In this document: piece by piece, positions 28,838 to 35,143 of the stretch | Layout: the number at the start of each line of letters is the position of its first letter | Numbering within the stretch: position 1 is the first letter of the stretch | Assembly: GCA_003244185.1 (NCBI GenBank) | Contig: QHBT01000029.1 | Coordinates: 1 to 64,000 of the forward strand | Reading direction: 5' to 3' | Source of the DNA: Candidatus Dormiibacter spiritus | Lineage (GTDB): Bacteria; Chloroflexota; Dormibacteria; Dormibacterales; Dormibacteraceae | DNA: 64,000 nucleotides | Notes under the pieces: model-generated | The model's input: only the letters and a program-made list of their open reading frames with translations | What the model was told of the DNA's origin: nothing | Database searches by the model: none | Translations under genes and position numbers: made by a program

Positions 28838-28869
28838 TTAACCATTAGTTAACCCCACGCTTGAATAAT
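28838..28869 (+). promoter_or_regulatory. PhoP box and promoter of pstB-phoU-phoP-pstCA
   Basis: TTAACC (28838-28843), five bases, TTAACC (28849-28854), nine bases, then AATAAT (28864-28869, five of six matches to the -10 consensus). A GTG start follows six bases later. Two perfect hexamers 11 bases apart, placed where a -35 would be, are the geometry of PhoB/PhoP-activated promoters. Confidence 0.6.
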
Positions 28870-28875
28870 CGAAGC

Positions 28876-29724
28876 GTGGTTGCCAGACCTCAGACCGGGA
28901 CGCCAACGGCCGGCAGTTCAACAGTCAGTCCGCATCTGACAGCTCTGGAGGGCGCGCCGCAGACACTTGTCTCGGTCGAAGGCGTCTCCTTCTGGTACGG
29001 CAAGCGGCAGGCCCTGAACCAGCTTGACCTCGCCATCCCGCACCGGCGCGTCACCGCGCTGATCGGGCCTTCCGGGTGTGGCAAGAGCACGCTGCTGCGG
29101 ATGCTGAACCGGATGTACGACCTCGTGCCCGGGAGCCGAACAGCAGGCAGGATCCTATTCGGTGGGGAGGACATCCTGGCGACCCGCCAGCTGCTGGAGC
29201 TGCGGCAGAAGATAGGCATGGTCTTTCAGAAGCCCAGCCCCTTCCCCATGTCGATTCGCGACAACGTAGCCTTTGCGCCGCGCCTGCTCGGCTGGGGCAA
29301 GAAGCGCATCAACGACGCGGTCGAGCGCAGCCTGCGGGACGCGGCCCTGTGGGACGAGGTGAAGGATCGGCTGAGCGCGTCAGGCACCTCGCTCTCGGGC
29401 GGTCAGCAGCAGCGGCTGGCGATCGCGCGGGCAATCGCAGTCGGCCCGGAAGTGATCTTGATGGACGAGCCCTGCTCGGCCCTGGATCCGATGGCCACGC
29501 TGAAGATCGAGGACCTGATGCGCCGCTTGGTCGAGACCTACACGATAGTCATCGTCACTCACAACATGCAGCAGGCGGCGCGGGTCGCCGATCACACGGC
29601 GTTCATGCTGATGGATCCTGAGCACGGCTACGGCGAGCTGGTCGAGTTCGGCAACACGACCGACATCTTCCAAAAGCCGAAGGACCCGAGGACCGAGGCA
29701 TACATCACCGGGCGGTTCGGATGA
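28876..29724 (+). CDS. pstB: Phosphate ABC transporter ATPase
   Basis: 282 residues from GTG 28876. This start is chosen over TTG 28861 because it sits six bases after a good -10 box. The first 30 residues are a non-conserved extension. Walker [10 protein letters not shown] (about 64-72), Q-loop [12 protein letters not shown], signature [14 protein letters not shown], Walker [14 protein letters not shown] and switch His VTHNMQQA are all present. The [11 protein letters not shown] loop is specific to PstB. It overlaps phoU by four bases (ATGA). It powers phosphate import through PstC and PstA. Confidence 0.96.
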
Positions 29725-30395
29725 CAGTCACCCGGCACAGCTTTCAGCTGGAGCTGGACTTGTTGCGGGAATCGCTGCTGCGCATGGCGGGCATGGTCGA
29801 GGCGCAGATAGACGACGCTCTCAATGCCCTGCGCGCGTTTGACCAGGAAGCCTCCGACGAAGTGCGGCACAACGACCAACAGATCAACGAGCTGCACAGG
29901 CAGATCCGGGAACAGGTCTTTGTCGTCATCGCCACCCAGCAGCCTGTCGCTCGTGACCTGCGGACGCTGATGGGCGTGCAGTCCATAGCGCTCGAGCTGG
30001 AGCGCATCGGCGATTACGCGGTACGCATCGCGCGTCGCGCCACGATGCTGGCAGGTCTTCCCCACCGACCGCTGCGCACCGAGTTCGGGCTGATGGGCGA
30101 GGTTGCCAGCCAGCAAGTGAGGGACATCCTGGACGCGCTGATCGAGCAGAACGCCGCCAGCGCGGCAGAGGTGGCTGCCAAGGACGACGAGATCGACCGC
30201 CTCTACCATCGCGTCTTCGACGAGTTGATAGCCGAGCTGGCCGCGCTGCCGGATGACGCCGACCGCGAGCAGGAGGCGCTCCGCTGTGTGACGCTGATCC
30301 AGGTGGCTCACAACTTGGAGCGCATAGGCGACCGCATAGCCAACGTCGCGGAGGACATAGTGTTCCTGCAGTCTGGTCAGGTAGTGGAGCTCTAG
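29721..30395 (+). CDS. phoU: Phosphate-uptake regulator PhoU
   Basis: 224 residues. Two repeated three-helix bundles each carry the metal-cluster motif: [15 protein letters not shown] (about residues 93-107) and [15 protein letters not shown] (near 197-211). PhoU links Pst activity to PhoR and represses the regulon when phosphate is ample. The start overlaps pstB by four bases. phoP follows 12 bases later, so pstB, phoU and phoP are one unit. Confidence 0.96.
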
Positions 30396-30407
30396 CTGGG
30401 ACACGAG

Positions 30408-31148
30408 GTGGACAGAATCCTGATCGTCGAGGACGACGAAGGCATCCGGGAGACGCTGCGCTACAACCTGGAAGCAACGGGCTACGCTGTCAGCGAAGCC
30501 GGCGACGGCGCGGTCGGCCTGCGCACTGCCCACAACCTGCGGCCGGATCTGGTGCTGCTGGACCTGATGCTGCCGAGCATGAGCGGGATGGACTTCTGCC
30601 GGGCGTTCCGCCGCGCCAGCAGCGCTCCGATCATCATGCTCACCGCCAAGGACTCGGAGGTGGACAAGATAGTCGGCCTCGAGCTGGGGGCGGACGACTA
30701 CATCACCAAGCCCTTCTCCGTGCGCGAGGTGCTGGCCCGTGTTCACGCTGTCCTTCGACGCAGGAACGATGGCCAGGGCGAGCGCAGCCAGCCCGAGCAG
30801 GAAACCATAGGCAACTTCAGCCTTGATCGGCCAGGCCGGCGCGTGATGGTGGACGGCTCCGAGGTGCATCTGACCAGCCGCGAGTTCGATCTTCTCTCCC
30901 ACCTGATCGCCCGGAGCGGCCGGGTGCAGTCGCGCGAGATGCTGCTCCAGGAGGTCTGGGGCAATACCTTCGTGGGCGACCGCAAGACAGTCGACGTGCA
31001 CATCCGCTGGCTGCGCGAAAAGCTGGCGGACCGGGTGCCGCTGGAGATTGTGACTGTGCGCGGCGCCGGCTACAGGCTGGACAGGCGCAAGAGCGGCGGG
31101 CCGGAGGCTGCCGGCGACCAGGCCCCGGCCATCTCGGTAGCACGTTAG
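30408..31148 (+). CDS. phoP: Phosphate-regulon response regulator (OmpR family)
   Basis: 246 residues from GTG 30408. The receiver domain (1-120) has the acidic pocket IVEDDE, phosphoacceptor Asp in LVLLDLMLPSMSG (about 53), Thr in MLTAKDSE and Lys in ITKPFS. The winged-helix DNA-binding domain (about 140-235) has EVHLTSREFDLLSHL, the recognition helix in DRKTVDVHIRWLREKL and VRGAGYRL. It is the expected partner of the PhoR kinase and the likely ligand of the TTAACC boxes. pstC starts five bases after it. phoB is an equivalent name. Confidence 0.93.
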   Translation: MDRILIVEDDEGIRETLRYNLEATGYAVSEAGDGAVGLRTAHNLRPDLVLLDLMLPSMSGMDFCRAFRRASSAPIIMLTAKDSEVDKIVGLELGADDYITKPFSVREVLARVHAVLRRRNDGQGERSQPEQETIGNFSLDRPGRRVMVDGSEVHLTSREFDLLSHLIARSGRVQSREMLLQEVWGNTFVGDRKTVDVHIRWLREKLADRVPLEIVTVRGAGYRLDRRKSGGPEAAGDQAPAISVAR

Positions 31149-31152
31149 CGGT

Positions 31153-32097
31153 TTGGAGACAGCTCTCCGGACCGGCCTGCGCCGCTGGGGCGGCCGGGGC
31201 TCGGCCGAAGGCTTCCGCTACTGGTCGGCGCTGGCCGGACTGCTGGTGCCGCTCGTGCTCGTCGCAATCGTGCTGGTGCTCCTCCTCCAGGCCCAGCCCG
31301 CGCTGAGCCGCTTCGGCCTTGGCTTCCTCACCGCGCGGGCGTGGAATCCTGTCAAGCAGGAGTTCGGCGCCCTTCCCTTCCTCTACGGAACGGTGGCAAC
31401 CAGCCTGCTGGCGCTGTTGATGGCTCTGCCTGTGGGGGTGGGAGTCGCGCTGTTCCTGGCCGAACCCGGGCTGCCGCGCGTGCGCGGAGCGCTGGGTCTC
31501 GGCGTCGAGCTCCTGGCCGGCATCCCCAGCGTCGTTTACGGCATCTGGGGCCTCTACGTGTTGGCGCCCTGGCTGCTGGAGCATGTGAGCAAGCCACTGA
31601 CCACGCGGCTCGGCGGCTTTCCCCTCCTCGCCGGACCTGCCCGCCAGACAAACCTACTGCTGGCTTCCATAGTCATCGCGATCATGATCCTGCCCACGCT
31701 CGCCTCGATCTCGCGCGAGGTGCTGAAGGCGGTGCCAAACGGCATCCGAGAATCGAGCCTGGCGCTCGGCGCAACCTGGTGGGAGACTGTGTGGCGGGTG
31801 GTGCTGCCCGCGGCACGGGCAGGCATCTTCGGCGCTACTGTGCTGGCCCTGGGCCGGGCGTTGGGGGAGACCATCGCTGTGACCATGGTGATCGGCAACA
31901 CGCCGGTGATACAGACGTCGCTGCTGGGACCGGCCTACACGCTCGCCAGCGTGATCGCCAACGAGTTCAGCGAGGCAACTGGCCAGGTTTACACGGCCGC
32001 CTTGCTGGAGCTGGGTTTGGTGCTGGTGCTGCTCACCCTGGTCATCAATCTGCTCGCCCTGCTGCTCGTCCGCAACACAGGCAGACAGCTGGCGTGA
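31153..32097 (+). CDS. pstC: Phosphate ABC transporter permease PstC
   Basis: 314 residues from TTG 31153. Six membrane helices are predicted. The EAA loop reads EVLKAVPNGIRESSLALGATWWETVWRVVLP in the canonical place for the PstB contact, and PLLAGPARQTNLL is a periplasmic loop. GIWGLYVLAPWLLEH is typical of PstC. It forms the inner-membrane channel with PstA, whose GTG start overlaps this stop (GTGA). Confidence 0.95.
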   Translation: METALRTGLRRWGGRGSAEGFRYWSALAGLLVPLVLVAIVLVLLLQAQPALSRFGLGFLTARAWNPVKQEFGALPFLYGTVATSLLALLMALPVGVGVALFLAEPGLPRVRGALGLGVELLAGIPSVVYGIWGLYVLAPWLLEHVSKPLTTRLGGFPLLAGPARQTNLLLASIVIAIMILPTLASISREVLKAVPNGIRESSLALGATWWETVWRVVLPAARAGIFGATVLALGRALGETIAVTMVIGNTPVIQTSLLGPAYTLASVIANEFSEATGQVYTAALLELGLVLVLLTLVINLLALLLVRNTGRQLA

Positions 32098-32948
32098 GCC
32101 GGAACCGCCGGCGCCTGTTCTTCAGCGCCGCGGCGCGAGGTGGGATCTGGCTGATGGCCGCGATCGCCTTGCTGCCGCTGGCGTTGGTCCTCCTCCATAC
32201 AGTGACCAACGGTCTGCCCGCTGCTTTGTCGGTCAACTTCTACACGCATGTGGAGCGGCCGGTGGGCATTCCGGGGGCTGGCGTCTCGCACGCGCTGACG
32301 GGGACTCTGGTGATGGTCGGCATCGCCTCGCTTTTGGCCATCCCCGTCGGCGTGGTCGGCGGCATCCATCTGGTCGAGTACGGCGGTGGTCAGCTGCCCC
32401 GGGGCATCCGGCTGGCGGCTGACGTGCTGGTCGGTACGCCCTCCATCGCTGTGGGTCTCTTCGTGTACGCCATCGCCGTCGCGCCCTTCCACCACTTCTC
32501 AGCGCTCAGCGGCGCCGTGGCGCTCGCAGTCCTCATGCTGCCGATTGTCCTGCGCACGACAGAATCGGCCATCGCACTGGTGCCCAATGGGATCCGGGAG
32601 GCGGGGCTGGCCCTGGGCCTGGCGCGCTGGCGGGTTGCCCTGCAGCTCATCCTGCCTGCCGCCGCCCCGGGCGTCCTGACCGGCTGCCTGCTGGCTGTGG
32701 CCAGGGCGGCGGGCGAGACGGCCCCGCTGCTCTTCACCGCCTTCGGCAACAAGTTCTACACGCTGGACCCGACGAGGGCGATGTCCGCCCTGCCGCTGAT
32801 CGTCTTCCACGACGCACTGACGCCCTATGAAGATCTGGTCCGACAGGCGTGGGGGGCCGCCCTGCTGCTCGTCGCGCTGACGCTCTTCACCAACGTGCTG
32901 AGCCGGCTGGCGTTGCGCCGCCAGATAGCGCTGGCCGGCGGCCAGTGA
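32094..32948 (+). CDS. pstA: Phosphate ABC transporter permease PstA
   Basis: 284 residues from GTG 32094, overlapping the pstC stop. Six membrane helices are predicted. GGIHLVEYGGGQLPRGIRLAADVLVGTPSIAVGLF is the characteristic PstA segment, and the EAA loop reads SAIALVPNGIREAGLALGLARWR. It pairs with PstC. It is the last Pst gene; the aromatic leader promoter begins only 15 bases after its stop. Confidence 0.95.
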   Translation: MSRNRRRLFFSAAARGGIWLMAAIALLPLALVLLHTVTNGLPAALSVNFYTHVERPVGIPGAGVSHALTGTLVMVGIASLLAIPVGVVGGIHLVEYGGGQLPRGIRLAADVLVGTPSIAVGLFVYAIAVAPFHHFSALSGAVALAVLMLPIVLRTTESAIALVPNGIREAGLALGLARWRVALQLILPAAAPGVLTGCLLAVARAAGETAPLLFTAFGNKFYTLDPTRAMSALPLIVFHDALTPYEDLVRQAWGAALLLVALTLFTNVLSRLALRRQIALAGGQ

Positions 32949-32963
32949 CGCGGGACTTGGTGC

Positions 32964-32969
32964 TACGAT
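32964..32969 (+). promoter_or_regulatory. Extended -10 box of the aroF leader transcript
   Basis: TACGAT with TGC upstream. The leader GTG follows ten bases later at 32980, so transcription would start at or within a few bases of it. No -35 match is visible. Confidence 0.45.
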
Positions 32970-32979
32970 CACACGCAAC

Positions 32980-33057
32980 GTGATCTGCGCAGCGAGCGTC
33001 TGGAGCTATTGGTACTCGTTTACGGAGCCGGCGGGAAGCCGGAGCCGGACGAGCTAG
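32980..33057 (+). CDS. Aromatic-amino-acid leader peptide of the DAHP synthase gene
   Basis: 25 codons from GTG 32980 to TAG 33055-33057. Codons 8-14 read WSYWYSF: two Trp, two Tyr and one Phe in seven residues, in a genome region where TGG, TAT and TTT are rare. The remainder is Ser/Arg/Gly/Pro-rich. No Shine-Dalgarno is present, but a -10 box lies ten bases upstream, so it is probably translated leaderless. Position just ahead of a DAHP synthase, the first enzyme of Trp/Tyr/Phe synthesis, and overlap of its end with a pairing RNA segment make a sensing role likely. Being too short for homology, it rests on composition, position and RNA structure. Confidence 0.72.
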   Translation: MICAASVWSYWYSFTEPAGSRSRTS

Positions 33058-33125
33058 CTCACCCTCGTCTCCGCTCCCCCGCCGGCACCGGCGTGCTGCA
33101 GGTGGGAGATCAGCGAGGAGACGAG
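33027..33125 (+). promoter_or_regulatory. Attenuator: alternative RNA stems controlling the aroF ribosome-binding site
   Basis: Segment 1 GACGAG (33048-33053), at the end of the leader ORF, pairs with segment 2 CTCGTC (33064-33069). Segment 2 extended, CTCGTCTCC (33064-33072), pairs perfectly with segment 3 GGAGACGAG (33117-33125). Segment 3 contains part of the GAGGAG ribosome-binding site of aroF (33115-33120). The pairings exclude each other. An extra long stem GCCGGCGGG (33027-33035) with CCCGCCGGC (33078-33086) competes with a local hairpin at 33080-33093. Ribosome stalling on the aromatic codons would leave segment 1 free and expose the RBS; a ribosome at the TAG would cover segment 1 and let 2:3 form. 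The mechanism is inferred. Confidence 0.62.
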
Positions 33126-33129
33126 ACAG

Positions 33130-33921
33130 TTGTTACAGATAAGCGAAGCCAACCCTCACATCCGTCGCCTCGTGCGCATCGGCAGCATGGTGGTTGGCGG
33201 CAGCCGGCCTGTGATCATCGCCGGACCGTGCGCGGTGGAACCCGCCTATGTCGAGCAGGCGATGTCCTGCGCCGGGGCTGGCATCGACGCGCTTCGCGCC
33301 TGCCTCTTCAAGCCCCGCACCCACCCTGATAGCTTCCAGGGCCTGGGCGCCGCGGCGCTGCCCCTGCTGGCAGAAGTCCGCCAGCGGACCGGCCTGCCGC
33401 TCATCTCGGAGGTCCTGGCGGTGGAGGACGCAGAGGCATTGGGCGAGAGCGTTGACGGCTTCCAGGTCGGAGCCCGCAGCATGCACAACGTCCGGCTGCT
33501 GGAAGCCCTGGGTGAGCTTGGCCGCCCGGTTCTCCTGAAGCGTGGTCTCGCCGCCACCATTGACGAGTGGATCGCCGCGTCCGAGTACATCCGTCGCCGC
33601 GGCAACGATGAGGTGGTGCTGTGCGAGCGCGGCATTCGCACCTTTGAGCCGCGGACGCGTAACACGCTGGATTTGAACGCGGTGCTCATCGCCCGGGAGC
33701 TGACAGACCTCCCCGTGATCGTCGATCCCAGTCACGCCGCCGGCAATCGAGATTGGGTGCCGGCTTTGGCCAGGGCGGCTCTCGCGGTGGGTGCCGACGG
33801 TCTCCTGGTCGAGGCGCATCCGGCGCCGGCGCTGGCCTGGACGGATTCGGCGCAGGCCATTGACGTGGCAGAGTTGACCGAGCTGGTGATCGCCACCGTG
33901 GTGGCGGCGGCTGGGCGCTGA
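33130..33921 (+). CDS. aroF: 3-deoxy-7-phosphoheptulonate (DAHP) synthase, type I beta, core-only
   Basis: 263 residues from TTG 33130, with GAGGAG nine bases upstream. Family motifs: IIAGPCAVEP (about 30-38), KPRTHPDSFQGLG, VGARSMHNVRLLE, LLKRGLAATIDEW, CERGIRTFEPRTRNTLDL and VDPSHAAGNRDWV, with metal and PEP/E4P ligands in place. The enzyme condenses PEP with erythrose 4-phosphate to begin the shikimate pathway. There is no N-terminal ferredoxin-like or C-terminal chorismate-mutase-like regulatory domain, so no feedback site is evident. That fits control at the level of expression by the leader in front. Confidence 0.95.
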   Translation: MLQISEANPHIRRLVRIGSMVVGGSRPVIIAGPCAVEPAYVEQAMSCAGAGIDALRACLFKPRTHPDSFQGLGAAALPLLAEVRQRTGLPLISEVLAVEDAEALGESVDGFQVGARSMHNVRLLEALGELGRPVLLKRGLAATIDEWIAASEYIRRRGNDEVVLCERGIRTFEPRTRNTLDLNAVLIARELTDLPVIVDPSHAAGNRDWVPALARAALAVGADGLLVEAHPAPALAWTDSAQAIDVAELTELVIATVVAAAGR

Positions 33922-33949: not shown

Positions 33950-35143
33950 TCAGCCGCAGCGCGTCAGGCTCAGCCCGTCCGTCTGGGCCCCGTGCTTTCT
34001 GGCCCAGGTCGCCAGCATCCGCTGCAGGCTCGCGGCGCCCTGGTCATCCCGGCTCGCGTAGCTGAGCCGCATGCAGTACTGAGCGCCGCTCGTCCAGGCG
34101 ACGTAGCTGTCTCCGCCCCAGCCGCTGGTCGCGGCCTGCAGATCGCCCGGGCTCACCCCGGGGTTACCGTAGAGGTCGTTCAGCATCAGGTTGAGACCGA
34201 ACTCGCCCCAGACGCCCTTGTCGAAGATGGGACCGTCGGCCCCCGGCTCCCCCACCGGCTTGGGCGCCTCGCCGCCCAAAAAGCGATCGGGATGAATCAC
34301 CAGCGCCGAGGCTTGAGGTGGGGTACGGAAAGCTTGGTCCAGCGCTGACTGACCCTGGCTGCCGCGCAGCGCCACGACAAACCGCGGGCCCACGCTGTAG
34401 GGGAAGCTCAGAATCCTGATGAGCACAGGGGGGACATCGGCTGGAACGCCGCCACCGCTCTGCGAGTCAATCTCACTTTTCTCAGCTGGGGACAGGCTGG
34501 CGATGTAGGCGTTCTCCACCGATACAGCGTCGCCTTCGACCAGCGCCGAATACGCCTCACCCTGGTCCTCGGTGAGGTTCTTCTGGTGCGCCTGCAGATC
34601 GAACCACTGGTCCTGCAGCGCGTGGGTCAGCTCGTGCACCACCACATGCCTGACCGCCGCGCTGGCGGTGTCGCCGCGCACCACCAATTCCTTGGTAGCA
34701 GGGTCGTAGTAGCCGATCACCGCGCCGCTGAGCAGCGCCTCCTCGGCCTTCTCGACATCGACCCCCGGCTGGACGAGATCCAGCGCGCGAAGCAGCTTCG
34801 CCTCGCGGTCCAAGTCAGCGTGATCTTTGGCCTGGAGCTCGGCGATGCGCTGAGCGAAAGCCGCGTCACTCAGATGGTTGACCTTGACCGGCAGCATGAA
34901 CGAGAGCCCCCGGTGCGCCTCCACGAACCGCTCAGCTTCAGGAACGAAGGCCTCGATGCTTCCTGGCGGCCGGGCCGGCGCAGAGGAGGGTGAGATTGTG
35001 ATCGACGGCCTTACTGAGGGTGAAGCGGCCACCCGCCGGTGGGGCAGCAGGCTGGTGAGCTGCTTTCCGCCGGGCGGCGCACAGGCCGCCAGGAGGAGCG
35101 CGACGACGATCGCGCTTAGAGGCCGGAAGATGGTCATACGCAT
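33950..35143 (-). CDS. Lipoprotein with HExxH zinc-metallopeptidase signature
   Basis: 397 residues. The lipoprotein signal ends at LLLAAC (Cys about 21). A Ser/Pro/Ala-rich linker follows to about residue 65. The zincin motif VVVHELTHALQDQWFDL (about residues 167-183) is followed about 30 residues later by EDQGEAYSALVEGDAVSVE, which offers a third Glu ligand. The rest is uncharacterised; two late Cys (AQYCMRL and the C-terminal RCG) may pair. The protein is predicted to be an anchored, extracytoplasmic protease. Its substrate is unknown. It is convergent with aroF, 28 bases away, and not in an obvious operon. Confidence 0.75.
   Translation of the reverse strand: MRMTIFRPLSAIVVALLLAACAPPGGKQLTSLLPHRRVAASPSVRPSITISPSSAPARPPGSIEAFVPEAERFVEAHRGLSFMLPVKVNHLSDAAFAQRIAELQAKDHADLDREAKLLRALDLVQPGVDVEKAEEALLSGAVIGYYDPATKELVVRGDTASAAVRHVVVHELTHALQDQWFDLQAHQKNLTEDQGEAYSALVEGDAVSVENAYIASLSPAEKSEIDSQSGGGVPADVPPVLIRILSFPYSVGPRFVVALRGSQGQSALDQAFRTPPQASALVIHPDRFLGGEAPKPVGEPGADGPIFDKGVWGEFGLNLMLNDLYGNPGVSPGDLQAATSGWGGDSYVAWTSGAQYCMRLSYASRDDQGAASLQRMLATWARKHGAQTDGLSLTRCG

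Follow-up and report, generated by a model that had tools for sequence, protein, structure and literature searches.

A leader gene rich in aromatic codons upstream of aroF in Candidatus Dormibacteria: a probable ribosome-mediated attenuator acting through the Shine–Dalgarno sequence

Introduction

In Candidatus Dormiibacter spiritus the DAHP synthase gene aroF is preceded by a 25-codon reading frame in which tryptophan, tyrosine and phenylalanine codons crowd together. The question raised by this locus is whether the short frame controls the gene behind it, and at which step of expression. Judging by the sequences of the window and its relatives, this tiny W/Y/F-rich gene probably lets the ribosome sense an aromatic shortage and uncovers the start signal of aroF. 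The original prediction, an aromatic leader peptide combined with an attenuator that sequesters the ribosome-binding site, is supported by conservation in relatives, by covariation in the stem that encloses the leader stop codon (P1) and by the absence of a terminator. The window is the whole 64,000-nt stretch of DNA that was analysed. L labels denote loci and G labels denote genomes; the genome of the window is G000 and the window copy of the leader is L001. Coordinates are those of the window, on the plus strand unless stated otherwise.

Results

The leader and the DAHP synthase gene in the window

The leader ORF VICAASVWSYWYSFTEPAGSRSRTS (32980–33057) has a GTG start, 25 sense codons and a TAG stop (33055–33057). 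The putative regulatory codons W8 S9 Y10 W11 Y12 S13 F14 (codons 8–14) span positions 33001–33021. An extended −10-like element TGCTACGAT (32961–32969) lies 10 nt upstream of the GTG; transcription would start about 7 nt past this element, which would make the leader nearly leaderless. A sigma-70 scan of the window yielded zero matches. A main transcript start after position 33072 is argued against by the −10-like elements found in the window and ahead of all 23 aroF leaders described below, the leader search having required one. The predicted positions of the ORF, the pairing arms and the ribosome-binding site were each confirmed by direct reading of the window. The leader GTG is 31 nt past the stop of the preceding gene, and the region 28861–32948 upstream of aroF contains a phosphate-uptake-like cluster (pstB, phoU, a response regulator, pstC and pstA, assigned by eye).

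The aroF gene (33130–33921, TTG start at 33130) encodes a core-only type I-beta DAHP synthase (DAHPS) of 263 aa. The product matches PF00793 (besides the related NeuB) and TIGR01361 above the cut-off. It aligns to positions 79–324 of NF006421 with a score slightly below the cut-off and, since the match is limited to these positions, it has no N-terminal domain. The solved structures nearest to it by sequence are 1vs1 and 3nvt, and its best match in named genomes, with 98% identity, is the protein of Candidatus Dormiibacter inghamiae (L032) from the class Candidatus Dormibacteria. The predicted core-only state thus holds for the enzyme encoded here, but as a general tie between leader and enzyme it fails: the element also precedes an operon with a full-length DAHPS, and pheST. 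Likewise, compensation by the leader for an absent regulatory domain is not general, given that the element is also found at 8 of the 22 further DAHPS loci in the class (L002, L011–L031), where it sits upstream of aroH; none was found at the remaining 14. The second DAHPS of the window's genome (L002) has 338 residues and is encoded behind an ORF that reads by eye as trpA; a search of its upstream region for a leader found none. A gene for a 397-aa protein (33950–35143, minus strand) is convergent with aroF, and its only match is a sub-threshold one to DUF6782 (putative metallopeptidase).

We estimated how readily such features arise by chance. Among 906 short ORFs of the window (ATG or GTG starts, 12–40 codons, two strands, nested starts counted separately), the reported leader alone carries five or more aromatic codons within seven. 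Such an ORF occurs upstream of one of 165 control genes; by its peptide, it is the DAHPS leader of L055, described below. A perfect 9-base complement between the 3' region of the leader and the Shine–Dalgarno (SD) region was obtained in 0.6% of 5000 mononucleotide shuffles. When the duplex energy of the window copy alone was compared with dinucleotide shuffles, the SD pairing was not significant (p 0.15) and the stop-codon hairpin was borderline (p 0.067). In single-sequence shuffles across the leaders tested, SD pairings are mostly not significant and stop-hairpin pairings are mostly weak. Taken alone, the window sequence is suggestive, and the decision rests on relatives.

Leaders upstream of aroF across the class

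The core-only DAHPS subfamily was found in 24 of 110 genomes of the class; the class DAHPS set was limited to E up to 1e-79, and the core-only status was judged by the start codon and SD placement. Upstream DNA is available in full for 23 of the 24, the contig of L041 ending within the leader. An aromatic leader ORF of 20–28 codons, 2–7 of them aromatic, is present in all 23. A −10-like element stands 6–11 nt ahead of the leader start in 23/23, which is not an independent finding because the leader search required a −10-like match; in L007 and L008, TTGACA is located 17 nt ahead of TACGAT.

The leaders form three types. Seven, including that of the window, are of type A, and all five of family f1 have Trp, Tyr and Phe codons together. 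Type B (10 leaders) mostly has a single R-Y-F or F-Y-F, and type C (6 leaders) has RFYF(Y/W)F or HFYFYF. The three kinds of aromatic codons, whose joint sensing had been predicted, co-occur in 7 of the 23. The aromatic codon cluster, predicted to be conserved in close relatives, is indeed present in each of the four further family members that were found (L003–L006). Covariance models of type B (R2) and type C (R3) gave matches in 12 and 10 of the 110 genomes, respectively, opposite-strand and short R3 matches being disregarded. The strong matches are known aroF leaders, the cut leader of L041 and two places near contig ends (G083, G071).

The same element upstream of other genes

A covariance model built on type A, the type of the window (R1), was run over the 110 class genomes, and matches below 20 bits were disregarded. 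It matched 32 places in 22 genomes, upstream of aroF (7), aroH (13), pheS (7) and a gene for an Lrp/AsnC-family regulator (1). Downstream genes were read from the sequence, with one example per gene confirmed by profile. Four matches were not accepted: G025:C80 (within a reading frame), G044:C67, G003:C11 and G021:C252. An eighth pheS leader (L130) was found by reading the upstream regions of pheS.

The codons of the leaders fit the downstream genes, which we count in favour of an attenuator. All 13 aroH leaders have three Tyr and two or three Phe codons, and 2 of them have Trp; Trp codons gained from farther-upstream in-frame starts in L119, L121 and L122 were not accepted. The pheS leaders have at least two Phe codons (8/8), no Tyr (0/8) and, in two cases (L117, L130), Trp. 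Leaders of both kinds are found in six genomes (G042, G044, G048, G060, G100 and G102). The aroH operon of L014 continues with a full-length DAHPS gene and the prephenate dehydrogenase gene tyrA. Near-identical aroH leaders occur on two contigs of one genome (L108 and L109, G048:C75 and C85), due to either duplication or an assembly artefact. In L114 (positions 938–2779 of G021:C446) the genes for type II dehydroquinase and the Lrp/AsnC-family regulator flank a type-A-like leader, MQVWPPFRSRDFTVPVGHRGQTS; the regulator gene is followed by the shikimate kinase gene aroK, and the Lrp protein might be a regulator of the aromatic pathway.

The pheS gene is present in 101 class genomes. The leader was identified at 8 of 50 loci inspected, all from family f3; in the window's own genome (L147) no pheS leader was found. 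Other two-Phe ORFs upstream of pheS (L147, L149, L151 and a second one in L130) were judged to be chance occurrences. In E. coli the pheS leader is located behind rplT. The preceding gene ends of L117, L127 and L128 are rplT-like by eye, as in E. coli, and there the leader ATG adjoins the stop of the preceding gene (TAACATG). Because of this adjacency, these leaders are probably reached by coupling and not by a leaderless start.

A convincing Trp leader was found at 2 of 30 trpE loci inspected (L196 and L197, family f4). Both encode WRWSW leader peptides followed by a terminator-like site, and from their sequences they appear to be classical-looking trp attenuators in this class. Upstream matches in L178, L181 and L195 were judged to be chance occurrences, and the upstream DNA is short at L192 (83 bases) and L188 (185 bases). 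At trpE of the window's own genome (L193) no leader passed the filter.

Outside the class, aromatic leaders precede 4 of 8 DAHPS loci of the phylum that we examined (L052–L059). L055, L057 and L059, all from one genus (g112), have WFAYYF and the promoter-like sequence TTGACA-17-TATAGT, and L056 has RFFAYYFY before an aroH gene. R1 matched 14 of 400 phylum genomes, one of them outside the class (L167, with an RYTFAF leader before a full-length DAHPS). These five leaders may be homologous to the class elements.

Competing stems and their conservation

The leader RNA contains mutually exclusive stems, in that P0, P1/P3 and P2 overlap one another. The 5' arm of P0, GAGCTA (33003–33008), lies within the aromatic codons and pairs with TAGCTC (33055–33060), which comprises the leader stop codon and three nucleotides beyond it. 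This 0:1 stem had been overlooked in the original prediction; the stems that were proposed are all seen. Within P0, a small hairpin (33028–33042) formed by CCGGC (33028–33032) and GCCGG (33038–33042) competes with P3 and is invariant in 5/5 sequences. In the ON fold, the P3 arms GCCGGCGGG (33027–33035, invariant in 5/5) and CCCGCCGGC (33078–33086) pair with each other, and so do the P1 arms GACGAG (33048–33053) and CTCGTC (33064–33069), whose loop holds the stop codon. In the OFF fold, the anti-Shine–Dalgarno segment CTCGTCTCC (33064–33072, kept in 5/5) pairs with GGAGACGAG (33117–33125) to form P2, which overlaps the SD GAGGAG (33115–33120); the inner OFF stem P4 (33074–33108) is formed by CTCCC (33074–33078) and GGGAG (33104–33108).

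All three predicted stems are kept in 5/5: P3 as such, P1 without its sixth pair in some, and P2 with a single C:A mismatch in both L004 and L006. On the alignment of five sequences (A1), 91.6% of the cells of OFF stems are paired and three pairs are changed on both sides, which was reached by 24 of 500 shuffles. For P4 alone, 81.8% of the cells are paired and one pair is changed on both sides; in the P0 helix both-side changes affect 2 of 9 pairs, and one pair is broken in L003. The ON stems are 100% paired and scarcely vary in A1.

The predicted covariation in P1 was found among paralogues, in which its arms change together. For 26 leaders with 20 distinct arm pairs, the mean pairing energy of P1 arms within their own group was −15.7 kcal/mol vs −12.4 (sd 0.55) upon permutation, and none of 5000 permutations was as low. 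In every group the strongest pairing is between arms of that group, with a narrow margin in f3 aroF. Six of the 8 pheS leaders were used; L120 and L130 were excluded for lack of an evident stop hairpin. The same permutation for P3 gave −24.4 vs −23.0 (p 0.002, this and the other group p-values being too small because relatives are not independent), which is no sign of group-wise covariation since the non-f1 arms pair better with f1 partners. P3 does occur in compensatory forms, namely GCCGGTGGG/CCCACCGGC in L114 and GCCGGCGCG/CGCGCCGGC in L167. In single-sequence shuffles P3 has p 0.001–0.03 in f1 examples, L114, L167, L055, L057 and L059, and is not significant in L056 or in the tested f3, aroH, pheS, type B and type C cases. 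On the model-fitted alignment A7, which leans to its own structure and retained one false row (L062 92–178) in the counts, 46 cells are changed on both sides vs 16.3 (sd 3.4) in shuffled data (0/500), and slid controls gave at most 12. P2 shows almost no covariation.

Output of the proposed attenuator

An attenuator of this kind might act on translation by burying the SD, or on transcription (Rho-dependently or through a hairpin without a U tract) or RNA decay, the SD pairing being a by-product. We consider the latter unlikely, on the following evidence. The cost of opening the SD of aroF is raised, with a median of 8.8 kcal/mol (n=23) vs 3.9 in controls (n=71; Mann–Whitney p 7e-6). For aroH (p 0.04) and pheS (p 0.05) the difference from controls is less marked, and the window copy stands at the 87th percentile of the 71 controls. 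A stem-plus-T search for terminators found none in 44 class leaders, and 41 of them lack any 8-base segment containing 5 T. As predicted, the window region has no terminator-like site on the plus strand (one is present on the minus strand). Because no terminator was found in the 44 leaders, the element is not a classical transcription attenuator, though it would work like one. A T-box or another Rfam element was also considered, and in the window only a tRNA reached the gathering threshold.

Several observations speak for action on transcription or decay. An 8-base segment containing 5 or 6 T occurs in three of the 44 leaders, in one case inside the leader, and a T-rich stretch is located past the leader in the pheS leaders L117 and L127. 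Outside the class, a terminator-like site stands in the same place, between the leader and the gene, in 5/5 cases (L055, L056, L057, L059 and L167). Finally, at equilibrium the SD is not consistently opened by stalling, as described below.

The neighbour of the 3' arm of P3 differs between the leaders. In L055, L057, L059 and L167 this arm directly adjoins the terminator stem, and in the window it meets P4; in the aroH leaders it continues, as seen by eye, into CCTCC, a complement of the SD.

Folding with a stalled ribosome

Folding was calculated for the nascent RNA, which ends short of the SD, and for the full RNA; the figures are predicted pairing of stems. In the nascent RNA of L004, L005 and L006 without a ribosome, P0 prevails (0.93–0.99) over P3 (0.01–0.05). 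With a ribosome at W8, P3 rises to 0.90–1.00, and P1 reaches 0.94–0.98 in L004 and L006 and is absent in L005. Later stalls lose or reduce P3, which in L005, for example, is 0.37 at Y10 and 0 at the last Phe. In the window copy P0 is weak without a ribosome (0.50 vs 0.45 for P3); upon stalling both P3 and P1 form, P3 being 0.88–0.99 for stalls at codons 8–12, and the F14 stall leaves P1 alone. L003 behaves differently, P0 being absent and P3 falling upon stalling.

In the full RNA at equilibrium, P2 in stalled states is 0.83–1.00 (L001, L003–L006) and the SD is not released. In the window copy without a ribosome P2 is 0.38, lower than with a stalled ribosome, which is opposite to the model. 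The stop-codon state is not scorable for P2 because the P2 arm is partly covered by the ribosome. As the full RNA at equilibrium shows no switch, the switch must be kinetic; the decision of trp attenuators is kinetic as well. Of the 30 aromatic positions in the seven type-A leaders, 23 show a lower SD opening cost when the ribosome stalls there; the cost rises at W8 of L003, at the last Phe of both L004 and L005, and at all three positions of L007. Types B and C show no consistent drop. A ribosome parked at the stop codon also shields four bases of the P2 5' arm, and for this reason the cost in that state (3.3–5.3 in L001 and L003–L006) does not exceed that of many stalled states.

Discussion

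Proposed mechanism

We consider it likely that the element is an attenuator read by the ribosome, as in trp leaders, and that its output is translational, namely sequestration of the SD. Transcription would begin at or slightly ahead of the leader start codon. As long as no ribosome is present, P0 and the small hairpin would occupy the arms of P1 and P3, so that CTCGTCTCC stays available for pairing with GGAGACGAG and the OFF state results. When charged aromatic tRNA is short, the ribosome would stall in codons 8–14 and block P0; P3 and P1 would then form during RNA synthesis and trap CTCGTC, so that the SD emerges free (ON). With ample charged tRNA, the ribosome would reach the stop codon in the P1 loop and break P1 and P3, and the freed CTCGTCTCC would pair with GGAGACGAG, burying the aroF SD (OFF). 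We infer that the leader is translated, that ribosomes stall on it, that the ON state is trapped kinetically and that aroF translation responds; for the nascent RNA of relatives, folding predicts that P0 gives way to P3.

A peptide that arrests the ribosome in the TnaC manner, sensing a free aromatic amino acid or another ligand instead of charged tRNA, would explain why the peptide parts FTGPA, FIRPA and YLGPA recur. However, the CCGGC arm of P3 and the small hairpin encodes the recurring part, and therefore RNA pairing explains the recurrence. Moreover, Trp, Tyr and Phe interchange between relatives, and the gaps that follow the aromatic codons in type C (L043, L049) are not multiples of three, so we regard an arrest peptide as very improbable. 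Hardly credible is a leader that merely provides aroF with ribosomes through coupling or reinitiation, its aromatic codons being incidental: short leader genes very near the next gene have been proposed to raise initiation (PMC4833913), but here the leader stop is 72–96 nt from aroF in 23/23 cases and the aromatic codons track the gene downstream.

Comparison with known systems

In trpL, pheL and pheM of E. coli the regulatory codons lie in the first pairing segment, the stop codon lies beside the second, and alternative stems are formed. The leaders described here share this layout; they differ from the E. coli ones in that SD occlusion would replace the U-tract terminator, and the aroF and aroH leaders would be nearly leaderless. 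Attenuation of E. coli trp, pheA and pheST is also named in PMC11802643.

The closest parallels upstream of DAHP synthase genes are known from other bacteria. In the aroR–aroF attenuator of Corynebacterium glutamicum (Neshat 2014, as described in PMC11802643 and PMC4046766), ribosome stalling raises expression; its leader, which contains Phe and Tyr codons, reportedly does not respond to Tyr (PMC11802643). As in our case, an aromatic leader peptide (there Phe-Tyr-Phe) precedes a DAHP synthase gene. The C. glutamicum system is reported as transcription control, whereas here the SD would be sequestered and no terminator is found, and the aromatic mix here is different and includes Trp. In the Acholeplasma uORFC-13-1 motif, the DAHP synthase gene aroF is likewise preceded by an ORF that contains Phe codons, beside an apparent intrinsic terminator (PMC8632094); the terminator and the phylum set it apart.

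T-boxes bind tRNA directly. Those of Actinobacteria that act on translation have an SD sequestor in place of the terminator, and the actinobacterial LEU element has a run of leader codons paired with the SD in a pseudoknot before leuA (PMC1262725). The LEU element shares with our leaders the theme of codon run to SD, and the T-boxes share the sequestor; no such Rfam match is present in the window. Mycobacterial leaderless poly-cysteine short ORFs (Canestrari 2020) control translation of the next gene (as described in PMC9031893); they resemble our leaders as leaderless short ORFs with a codon run and differ in the amino acid, cysteine, and in the genes. Attenuation through the ribosome binding site is already in print as an idea (PMC4833913). 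The open-access literature that we searched, partly in excerpts, yielded no description of the leader family in Dormibacteria. The principle is known from other bacteria, and the Dormibacteria family of switches is a new form of it.

Tentatively, and with somewhat more doubt than confidence, we suggest that the family is modular: one module spread as paralogues, its codons were retuned and its output was exchanged between terminator and SD sequestor. The sensing module would comprise the aromatic codons, the P3 arm that encodes x-P-A and the stop-codon hairpin P1. It would serve aroF, aroH-aroF-tyrA, pheST and Lrp-aroK, with a terminator as the output in other classes of the phylum and an SD sequestor in Dormibacteria.

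These findings extend ribosome-mediated attenuation to Dormibacteria, little-studied bacteria known mainly from metagenomes, and to attenuation that probably acts on translation from nearly leaderless leaders. They also provide a natural series of similar sensors combined with differing codons, genes and outputs. With this series, the change of amino-acid specificity in attenuators and the passage from transcriptional to translational output become testable.
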